A stretch of DNA of 64,000 nt, taken from the NCBI RefSeq assembly GCF_036997485.1, contig NZ_JAWLPU010000001.1, forward strand, positions 62,001 to 126,000. Reading direction: 5' to 3'. This DNA comes from Brachyspira pilosicoli (GTDB taxonomy: Bacteria > Spirochaetota > Brachyspiria > Brachyspirales > Brachyspiraceae). Numbering within the stretch: the first letter of the stretch is position 1; the number at the start of each line of letters is the position of its first letter. The notes below the pieces were generated by a model. That model worked only from the letters and a program-made list of their open reading frames with translations. It was not told where the DNA came from and searched no databases. The position numbers and the translations under genes were made by a program. Shown piece after piece: positions 39,846-44,890 of this stretch.

Positions 39846-40379
39846 ATGAATAATGATGAAAAATTATTGACACCAGCTGCTAATGCTATATTTAATATAG
39901 CTAAAGATGCTAGTTTAATAAATGAAACATATAATGAGCTTAAAGAATGCTGTAAATTATTTGAAGATGAAGAAATAAGAAAATATTTCGCTGATAAAAC
40001 AATAGATAAAAGAGAAAAAACTGAACTTATAAAAAAAAAGTTAAAACCTATATTTTCTAAGGAAGTTTTTTCTTTTATCAATTTACTTATAGAAAATGAT
40101 ATTATCAATGAATTATCGAATATAGTTGATATTTACGGCAAAATGCTTGATGAACATAATAATACTGTGAGAGTAAAAATTGTTTGTGCTTACAGTATAA
40201 ACGAAGAAGCTGTAAAAAAAATAATAGATACTATAAAATCATTTTCTGATAAAAAAATAGATTATGTTATAGAAATAGATGATACTTTAATAGGCGGTAT
40301 AATAGTTAATATTGGCGATACAGTTTATGATTATAGTATAAAGAATCAGATAAATATGATGAAAAATAGATTTGTTTAA
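39846..40379 (+). CDS. atpH: ATP synthase F1 subunit delta, first copy
   Basis: A 177-residue delta/OSCP subunit at the top of the peripheral stalk. The N-terminal helical domain (AANAIFNIAKDASLINETYNEL) and the C-terminal signature IDDTLIGGIIVNIGDTVYDYSIKNQI are both present. No ribosome-binding site is strong here (TAGGGC). A second delta homologue follows 25 bases later. Length is normal. Confidence 0.9.
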   Translation: MNNDEKLLTPAANAIFNIAKDASLINETYNELKECCKLFEDEEIRKYFADKTIDKREKTELIKKKLKPIFSKEVFSFINLLIENDIINELSNIVDIYGKMLDEHNNTVRVKIVCAYSINEEAVKKIIDTIKSFSDKKIDYVIEIDDTLIGGIIVNIGDTVYDYSIKNQINMMKNRFV

Positions 40380-40404: not shown

Positions 40405-41031
40405 ATGGATCCTATAACTGCTGAAATTTTTACAAATTTAAAAACTGAAATATTCAATGAAGTTCAGAAAGAAAAAACTGCTAGATTTAAGCGTATAGTA
40501 AAAAATGAGGCAAGTGCTAAAAACTATGCTAAGGCTATGTTTGATGCAGCTAATGAATTAAAAAAGATAGATATTATTAAAAAAGATTTTGACATTATTT
40601 ATTCATCTTTATTTGAGGATAAGGATACTTTTTCTTTTTTCACTTCAAATTTTATAGATGGAAATGTGAGAGTTGATGTTATTAGAAGAGTATATGATAA
40701 TAAAATATCTCATGAAGCTCTTAATCTATTATCTATATTAGTAGAGAAGGATTTATTTAATATTTTGCCTGCTATAATAGTGGAATATGAAAACTTATGT
40801 AATGAGTTTTATGATATACTCTCTGTAAGGATTACTATTGCCAAAGAATTGGAAGGCATTGAAGAATTAAAAAGAGATATTATAAAGATGGTTAATAAGA
40901 ATGTTCATTTTTATATTGATATTAACGAATCTATCATAGGCGGTATTATAGTAGAGATAGAAGATATTATATATGATTATAGTATGAAGAGGCTTTTAAA
41001 TAATGTAAAAGATTCTCTTCTTGCAGAATAA
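40405..41031 (+). CDS. ATP synthase F1 subunit delta, second copy
   Basis: A 208-residue delta homologue directly after the first. It has an extra N-terminal helix of about 35 charged residues, then NYAKAMFDAANELKKID matching the family start, and the same C-terminal signature, INESIIGGIIVEIEDIIYDYSMKRLL. Both copies therefore keep both conserved regions; the two proteins are clearly diverged. It may replace or accompany the first copy on the stalk, or serve a different assembly state. AGAGG lies 7 bases upstream of its ATG, so it is probably translated. Confidence 0.88.
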   Translation: MDPITAEIFTNLKTEIFNEVQKEKTARFKRIVKNEASAKNYAKAMFDAANELKKIDIIKKDFDIIYSSLFEDKDTFSFFTSNFIDGNVRVDVIRRVYDNKISHEALNLLSILVEKDLFNILPAIIVEYENLCNEFYDILSVRITIAKELEGIEELKRDIIKMVNKNVHFYIDINESIIGGIIVEIEDIIYDYSMKRLLNNVKDSLLAE

Positions 41032-42741: not shown

Positions 42742-43623
42742 ATGGCAGAAAAACTTAATGTATTAAAAGCAAGAATTAAAGCCGTAACAAGCACACATAA
42801 AATCACTAAAACTATGGATATGATAGCCCGTTCTAAGACTGCTAAAATACTCGCAGTAGAGCAAGGTATGAGGCCTTATACACAAAAATTAAATAGAATA
42901 GTAGAAGAGCTTTCACATTCAGATATGGACCATTTACATCCCCTACTCTCTCCAAAAAAGACAATAAAAAATATTATATTATTTGTAATAACATCAAGCA
43001 GAGGGTTATGCGGTTCTTATAATACAAAAATATTAGATGAGGCAATGGAAAGAATTAGACACCATTATAGACATGGAAGAACTGTTGAGCTTCACGTATT
43101 GGGTAAAAAAGGAGAAGTATACTTTGAAAAGCAAAACATACCTATATCACGTAAATATCCCCGTATAGATGAAGAATCCACTTTTGATGATTGCGCTACT
43201 GTTGTACAGCGTTTCATGCATGATTATGCTATAGACAGTGCCTCTCGAGTAGAAGTTATATATACAAGATATTATACAAGAGTGGTTCATATACCTAAAA
43301 TTAAAAGCTTAATACCTATGATTCCAGATGAAGAAGATATAGAAGGAAGAAAAATAAAAAAACAGCTTGATTATTTAATAGAGCCAAATAGAGAAGATGT
43401 ATTAAAAGAGATTGTACCTTTAGCTATAACAACTTACTTTTACTTTATGATTACAAGTTCTTTTTTATCAGAAAATGCTGAGAGGGCTATCGCTATGAGA
43501 AATGCCACTGATAATGCAGAAAGACTACTTGAAGACTTAAAAAATAAAGCTAACAGAGCTAGACAAGAACATATTACTAATGAACTTCTTGATATTATAG
43601 GCGGTTCTGAAGCTATTAATTAA
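42742..43623 (+). CDS. atpG: ATP synthase F1 subunit gamma
   Basis: A 293-residue central-stalk subunit: N-terminal helix LKARIKAVTSTHKITKTMDMIA, the conserved SSRGLCGSYN segment and a C-terminal helix with AMRNATDNAERLLEDL. It rotates within the alpha-beta ring. AGAGGTG precedes the ATG. The usual atpD and atpC do not follow; the next gene is convergent and overlaps by four bases. Confidence 0.96.
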   Translation: MAEKLNVLKARIKAVTSTHKITKTMDMIARSKTAKILAVEQGMRPYTQKLNRIVEELSHSDMDHLHPLLSPKKTIKNIILFVITSSRGLCGSYNTKILDEAMERIRHHYRHGRTVELHVLGKKGEVYFEKQNIPISRKYPRIDEESTFDDCATVVQRFMHDYAIDSASRVEVIYTRYYTRVVHIPKIKSLIPMIPDEEDIEGRKIKKQLDYLIEPNREDVLKEIVPLAITTYFYFMITSSFLSENAERAIAMRNATDNAERLLEDLKNKANRARQEHITNELLDIIGGSEAIN

Positions 43624-44606
43624 TTAATTATATTATATAAAACTTTTAGTAATATATTATTTGTTTTACTATCTGATATTGTAACTCTTAAAAAATCTTT
43701 TAAGACATTACTCTCTTCATAGTTTTTTACATAAATATTGTTCTTTTTAAGTTCATCATATATATATTGAGAGTTTTTATTTGGGTGTTTTATAAGAAGA
43801 AAATTTGCTTTAGAAGGTAAAACCAAAAAACCTTCCTTACTTAATAAAATCTCCATTTTATCTCTTTCTAATATTATAGAACTTATATTTTTTATAGAAG
43901 TTTCTTTATCATTAATTGAAGCTATTGCTATTTTTTCTGATAATTTATTTATGCCGTATTTTTGTCTTATACAAGAAAACTTTTCTATATTAGTTTTATT
44001 TGATATCAAAAAGTTTATATTAAGTCCTGATAATGAATGAGAATGTGCTATAGAAGAGATTATAACTATATTATTATATTTCTCTATTAACCTCACAGCA
44101 CTATCCCAAGCAAAACTTATATATGACTCATCTAATACATATATATTATTATTGTTTATATATTTTTCTATATTTTCTATATAAAGACCTGTTTCTGCAT
44201 TTGGGTTGCTTGTTATTATTATGCTTTTTTTTATTTTTACTAAGGCATCTAAATCTATATTATAATCTTCTTTCACTTTAATAGTATCATAACTAATTTT
44301 TGAATACTCTAAAATATTTTTATATAAATCCCTATAAGGCTCTTGTAATAATATTTTTTTATTTTCAAATGAATTTAATATACAGTAAAAAGCCTCATAC
44401 ATTCCATTAACAGATATAATATTATCCTTATCAATATTAAGATTACTCGCCATAGCCAAATCCAATTCTTTGGCACTATAATCCGGGAAAAGCCTAAAAG
44501 ATTCTATATCAAAACTTTCAAGCTCTTTTATAATATTTTTTGAAGGTTTATATGGATTTTCATTTTTATCTAATCTAATTTCTTTTATTTCTTTTTTCAT
44601 AACCAT
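43620..44606 (-). CDS. HisC-like class I aminotransferase homologue without PLP lysine
   Basis: A 328-residue protein aligning with histidinol-phosphate aminotransferase: NENPYKP at the start, SNPNAETG (N134-G140), VLDESYISF (D159, Y162) and FLRVTIS near the C-terminus are all kept. The Schiff-base region, normally T-x-S-K-x-x-x-L-A-G-L-R, reads SSIAHSHSLSGLN, placing His188 at the lysine and Asn196 at the substrate/phosphate arginine. The GxDE motif is GMYE. Normal transamination is not expected. Fold-type I enzymes with His at this place are known (ColD, a sugar dehydratase), so a changed reaction is one option; a non-catalytic PLP or ligand binder is another. No other histidine-pathway gene is adjacent. 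Confidence 0.85.
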   Translation of the reverse strand: MVMKKEIKEIRLDKNENPYKPSKNIIKELESFDIESFRLFPDYSAKELDLAMASNLNIDKDNIISVNGMYEAFYCILNSFENKKILLQEPYRDLYKNILEYSKISYDTIKVKEDYNIDLDALVKIKKSIIITSNPNAETGLYIENIEKYINNNNIYVLDESYISFAWDSAVRLIEKYNNIVIISSIAHSHSLSGLNINFLISNKTNIEKFSCIRQKYGINKLSEKIAIASINDKETSIKNISSIILERDKMEILLSKEGFLVLPSKANFLLIKHPNKNSQYIYDELKKNNIYVKNYEESNVLKDFLRVTISDSKTNNILLKVLYNIIN

Positions 44607-44864: not shown

Positions 44865-44890
44865 AAAAAAGGCAGACTAAATAGCCTGCC
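44865..44890 (-). terminator. terminator of the pyrH-floA transcript
   Basis: GGCAGACT (44871-44878) pairs with AGCCTGCC (44883-44890) with one mismatch; on the minus strand it is followed by TTTTTT. It lies 21 bases beyond the floA stop. Confidence 0.85.

Follow-up and report, generated by a model that had tools for sequence, protein, structure and literature searches.

A HisC-derived protein without the Schiff-base lysine in Brachyspira: a probable pseudoenzyme kept under selection

What is a HisC-like protein kept for when the place of its Schiff-base lysine is taken by histidine? The question is raised by a gene in the window, the whole 64,000-nucleotide stretch of Brachyspira pilosicoli DNA analyzed here (G000:C1:62001-126000; host genome of 2.72 Mb). 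An earlier note had described the product as HisC-like with His188 at the PLP-lysine place, and this description holds: a Pfam search of the 328-aa protein matches Aminotran_1_2 (PF00155; E 4.3e-26, residues 9-321), codon 188 is CAT, and the motifs named in the note are present (NENP, NPNAETG, DESY and, within FLRVT, the C-terminal LR). In the phmmer alignment to the solved HisC 3hdo, the query segment iAHSHSLSGLNI lies opposite LSKSYSLAGMRI, so that His188 occupies the Schiff-base lysine column and Asn196 that of the arginine eight residues on. The claimed alterations of the nearby arginine (Asn196) and of the aspartate of GxDE (Tyr70) are likewise real. At E values up to 1, PF00155 is the only Pfam family matched; no DegT-type family and no fused DNA-binding or other domain was found. 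Residues were compared, in the numbering of the window protein, between 23 Lys-less rows and 55 usable canonical rows from spirochaete genomes; statements that all canonical rows carry lysine refer to these 55 rather than to the phylum, the rows being part of the spirochaete matches listed and the 149 genomes having been drawn from a larger group. The features concerned are as follows.

43620..44606, minus strand: Lys-less HisC-derived protein, 328 aa, ATG start codon at 44606-44604
44871..44890, minus strand: terminator-like hairpin following floA and preceding the Lys-less gene
44565..44567, minus strand: codon of Lys14, canonical Thr/Ser/Ala/Gln; Lys in 23/23 Lys-less and 0/55 canonical rows
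44397..44399, minus strand: codon of Tyr70, canonical Asp of GSDE; Tyr in 23/23 Lys-less rows, the window reading NGMYE
44130..44132, minus strand: codon of Asp159, kept; Asp in 55/55 canonical and 23/23 Lys-less rows
44121..44123, minus strand: codon of Tyr162, kept in 23/23 Lys-less rows
44046..44048, minus strand: codon of Ala187, canonical Ser (55/55 canonical rows)
44043..44045, minus strand: codon of His188 (CAT), Schiff-base Lys place; Lys in 55/55 canonical rows
44019..44021, minus strand: codon of Asn196, canonical PLP-phosphate Arg (Lys+8); Arg in 55/55 canonical rows
43686..43688, minus strand: codon of Arg307, kept in 23/23 Lys-less rows

The window protein is modelled with a HisC fold. 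An AF2 model from 44 sequences (mean pLDDT 94.1, pTM 0.91) has HisC 3hdo as its best match (Z 39.9, rmsd 2.2 over 323 residues, 24% identity, TM 0.93), and leans towards the canonical fold because its alignment is mostly canonical HisC: besides the window protein and L042, the rows are HisC-like relatives from viral contigs, with lysine near-invariant in that column. A first model, from two sequences, reached a mean pLDDT of 45 and was discarded. By analogy, the protein is probably a homodimer. It shares with HisC (TIGR01141; 3hdo, 1h1c, 1gew, 4r8d) fold type I of subfamily I-beta over its full length and keeps NENP, NPNAxTG, DExY, N268-F269 and R307, but it lacks the Schiff-base lysine, the PLP-phosphate arginine and the N-terminal lid.

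The losses go beyond those noticed earlier. At columns where the canonical rows are uniform or nearly so, the Brachyspira proteins have exchanged Asp70 for Tyr, Lys188 for His and Arg196 for Asn and, in addition to these changes of the earlier note, Tyr40 for Phe, the stacking aromatic Tyr92 for Arg, Ser187 for Ala, Gly198 for Asn and Arg294 for Lys; the whole N-terminal lid has also gone. The lid motif YxxGEQP occurs in 15/15 canonical versus 0/16 Lys-less rows examined, and likely starts lie 6-12 codons before NENP in 15 Brachyspira Lys-less rows, whereas in canonical rows the distance is usually at least 28 codons. In Mycobacterium tuberculosis HisC, the arginine at Lys+8 (Arg240 = Lys232+8) salt-bridges the PLP phosphate, one tyrosine stacks on the ring while another comes from the other subunit, two arginines grip the substrate phosphate and the N-terminal lid bears a substrate-binding tyrosine; the equivalent of Arg307 is the substrate-anion arginine in canonical enzymes (PMC4703992). 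These roles would carry over to the present family by spacing for Lys+8 and Lys+10 and by motif for the others. With lysine, phosphate contacts and lid all missing, it is very unlikely, on sequence grounds, that the protein forms an internal aldimine at the usual position or carries out ordinary transamination. Other parts of the site are retained, including Asp159, the partner of the pyridine nitrogen in canonical enzymes, Glu71 (23/23 Lys-less rows) and Asn136 (22/23). Lys14 is the sole column that passes the test of being new, common to all 23 Lys-less rows and present in <5% of canonical ones; Tyr70 follows the same pattern of gain in 23/23, though listed under another label.

The Lys-less gene is widespread in the genus. 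Orthologues were found in 23/26 Brachyspira genomes and in one genome of the sister genus (G026), with histidine at the lysine place in 22 genomes, threonine in G019 and isoleucine in G026. The string A-H-S-H-S recurs in 22 Brachyspira genomes, at identities of 60-100% (21 rows, L012-L015 and L017-L033, together with the divided copy L016), and His188 is thus neither a sequencing error nor chance. The gene of G013 is divided between two contigs (L016, L038) and was counted as histidine outside the residue table, which has histidine in 21/23 Lys-less rows; the wrongly extracted L134 (G134) was left out of all counts. Conservation of His188 and Asn196, the check proposed in the earlier note, is therefore borne out for the histidine in 22 genomes and for the altered residues generally, but fails at position 188 in G019 and G026. 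No clade member has lysine there, and the nearest lysine-bearing relative (G028) is an ordinary HisC outside the clade. The loss of lysine is thus fixed and old, but histidine is no common requirement. The gene is absent from G027 and from three of the 26 Brachyspira genomes (G001, G003 and G020), which have canonical HisC only, at 34-38% identity to the window protein. In G020, atpG occurs three times, each time on a different contig, and contamination is 7%, indicating a mixed genome bin; the missing Lys-less gene there is therefore weak evidence.

Phylogeny indicates where this protein came from. In a tree of 72 rows, 17 of them Lys-less (six near-duplicate Lys-less rows being left out), the Lys-less rows form one clade (support 100/100), sister to the lysine-bearing HisC from a third genus in the family, G028 (100/99); the next sisters are G029 and G030 of the same order (100/98). 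Elsewhere in the tree, among other spirochaete enzymes, lies the his-operon HisC of Brachyspira. This placement argues that the Lys-less gene is the order's own HisC put to another use and that the his-operon HisC is a separate lineage. Family scores fall stepwise across the group: against the TIGR01141 cut-off of 276.55 bits, G028 (314.9) and the his-operon HisC L035 (297.1) pass, whereas G026 (221.3), L027 (187.9), the window protein (168.3) and G019 (115) do not. The G026 orthologue has exchanged lysine for isoleucine and Asn136 for serine but still carries the serine, arginine and inter-subunit tyrosine, which suggests that lysine and lid were lost first and the phosphate contacts later. 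An AtpG tree was tried as a guide to species order and was not used, its deep forks being unresolved and G028 falling inside Brachyspira, an evident artefact.

The protein is constrained, though less so than its neighbours. Values of dN/dS (NG86) are 0.10-0.20 for six pairs within the pilosicoli group and 0.05-0.16 for 21 pairs of other Brachyspira, and no frame breaks occur among the 23 rows; such values indicate that the protein is in use. Between G000 and G011, the Lys-less gene has a dN/dS of about 0.20, versus 0.02-0.08 for five neighbouring genes.

That use is unlinked to an intact histidine pathway. HisD and HisB were each found in 22/31 genomes of the order, and both are missing from G000, G011, G012, G013, G016, G019, G026 and G027; the Lys-less gene is kept in seven of these eight, G000 included, whose genome is 99.91% complete and gave no match to HisD or HisB. 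One genome study likewise describes B. pilosicoli as being without the histidine gene set present in B. hyodysenteriae and B. murdochii (PMC2897892). A search for PdxS (SOR_SNZ) in G000 also gave no match, and nothing decisive emerged on PLP supply. A separate intact hisC, which the earlier note had suggested looking for, exists in other Brachyspira: a lysine-bearing his-operon HisC lies beside hisD and hisB in G001 and beside hisB in G003. It is missing from this genome, in which a protein search gave the Lys-less gene alone; a heterodimer with canonical HisC in the manner of LCB1/LCB2 was rejected for G000 on this ground. In the assembly of G015, the his-operon HisC (G015:C8:2080222-2081210) is broken by an in-frame TGA and the Lys-less paralogue is intact.

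Gene neighbours give no pointer to a ligand or partner. The Lys-less gene (43620-44606, minus strand) is convergent with atpG, which ends at 43623, and the terminator-like hairpin between it and floA suggests that it is transcribed separately. Promoter-like sites around it are fewer than in shuffled sequence, so no promoter is claimed, and no RNA families were found there. The gene adjoins atpG in G000, G011, G019 and G026 and follows a xerC-like gene in three further species examined (G018, G009 and G010); no conserved operon partner was found in these seven neighbourhoods, nor any sugar-pathway genes in the stretches read. In the atp operon itself, two genes for ATP synthase delta (OSCP, PF00213) lie next to each other on the plus strand, at 39846-40379 and 40405-41031, the second encoding 208 aa with an N-terminal extension. 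Other Brachyspira atp loci (L170/G019, L153/G018, L163/G004 and L169/G001) have an extra gene of about 250-290 aa between atpA and atpG, presumably glycosyltransferase-like from the look of its sequence; the atpA-atpG gap in the window is only about 190 bases.

The reading preferred here, at a rough probability of 0.7, is that of a selected pseudoenzyme on a HisC scaffold, derived from a vertically inherited HisC and no longer a transaminase. In an ancestor shared by Brachyspira and the sister genus, the HisC native to the family would have shed its N-terminal lid along with the Schiff-base lysine and acquired Lys14 and Tyr70; later, within Brachyspira, the PLP-phosphate contacts would have been lost too. 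Selection now keeps the protein, for a job that would need the HisC fold and probably a remodelled cavity, as in ligand or partner binding, without transamination or His188 chemistry. Lys14, Tyr70 and Asn196, all newly fixed, would line such a cavity alongside the retained contacts for ring and carboxylate (Asp159, Tyr162 and Arg307), and the protein may work through the binding of a small molecule or of a partner.

Some observations speak against a pseudoenzyme, and they are shared with competing explanations. Retention of Asp159 and Tyr162 in 23/23 Lys-less rows, and of Asn136 in all but one, would suit a bound pyridine ring, as in a non-covalent sensor or carrier of PLP or a related vitamer in which Asp159 and Tyr162 hold the ring and the protein acts by contact with another. 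Such a role is unlikely: the phosphate-binding and stacking residues are gone, from which PLP itself should bind weakly (judging from PMC4703992), and there is no DNA-binding or other fused domain by Pfam. Lys14, gained on or near the branch on which Lys188 was lost, raises the prospect that a lysine placed at the active-site rim, within the NENP segment, takes the role of Lys188, as Schiff base or general base, in a PLP or PMP enzyme of altered specificity. Its presence in every Lys-less and no canonical row favours this proposal, as does the retention of Asp159, Tyr162 and Arg307, but the lid has been lost and, in Brachyspira, so have the PLP-phosphate arginine, the serine, the inter-subunit tyrosine and the stacking aromatic, leaving relocation of the lysine decidedly improbable. 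Strong doubt also attaches to the wider version, that Lys14, gained with Tyr70 upon the loss of Lys188, either does what the old lysine did or binds some new cofactor or ligand, in a reshaped pocket that has lost its grip on the PLP phosphate.

Two further explanations fare worse. His188 is fixed in 22/23 Lys-less Brachyspira genomes, which exceeds what neutral drift would be expected to leave at a dead site, and with the ring contacts kept it might serve as the base in PMP-dependent, lysine-independent chemistry in the manner of a ColD-type dehydratase, the reaction raised in the earlier note. Relatives with threonine (G019) or isoleucine (G026) at this place make such chemistry unlikely; Aminotran_1_2 as the only Pfam match, the phosphate contacts lost in Brachyspira and the lack of sugar-pathway neighbours in the stretches read also count against it, and it is now barely credible. 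That the gene is decaying without present function would fit its faster evolution than its neighbours between G000 and G011 and its absence from 3/26 Brachyspira and G027. However, the frame is open in all 23 rows, dN/dS is 0.05-0.20 throughout, many residues are fixed specifically in the clade and the gene has been kept after a move to another place in the genome; decay is accordingly held to be highly improbable.

ColD and related sugar 3-dehydratases, which have histidine for lysine, belong to the DegT/DnrJ/EryC1 family; the window protein resembles them in its histidine but matches PF00155 only, and the histidine is not kept in G019 and G026. LCB1 of serine palmitoyltransferase, likewise of fold type I, kept in use and lacking the PLP lysine, is of alpha-oxoamine synthase origin and works beside a catalytic partner, whereas no close HisC partner was found in G000. 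The his-operon HisC of other Brachyspira (L035, L036 and others) belongs to the same superfamily (34-38% identity in six matches with loci) but, unlike the window protein, has the lysine and falls in another part of the tree. Rv3778c of M. tuberculosis, a non-catalytic relative of PLP enzymes, resembles the window protein in having fold type I, lacking the PLP lysine and being kept as an expressed or used gene, but it derives from a cysteine desulfurase relative rather than from HisC (PMC12910592). Lys-less relatives of PLP enzymes are thus already known as a kind; in the literature searched on Brachyspira histidine biosynthesis or histidinol-phosphate aminotransferase and on Lys-less or pseudoenzyme aminotransferases, no account was found of a clade derived from HisC in which three different residues stand in for the lysine.

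Databases are likely to label such genes hisC, and metabolic models may therefore credit species of the B. pilosicoli type with a missing histidine step. The clade also displays, in order, the steps by which the cofactor site of a PLP enzyme is lost, from G028, which is intact, through G026, in which the lysine is lost and serine, arginine and tyrosine are kept, to Brachyspira, in which the phosphate contacts are lost as well. As these stages lie under continued selection, they offer a clean test of how a pseudoenzyme originates and of what its fold is kept for.
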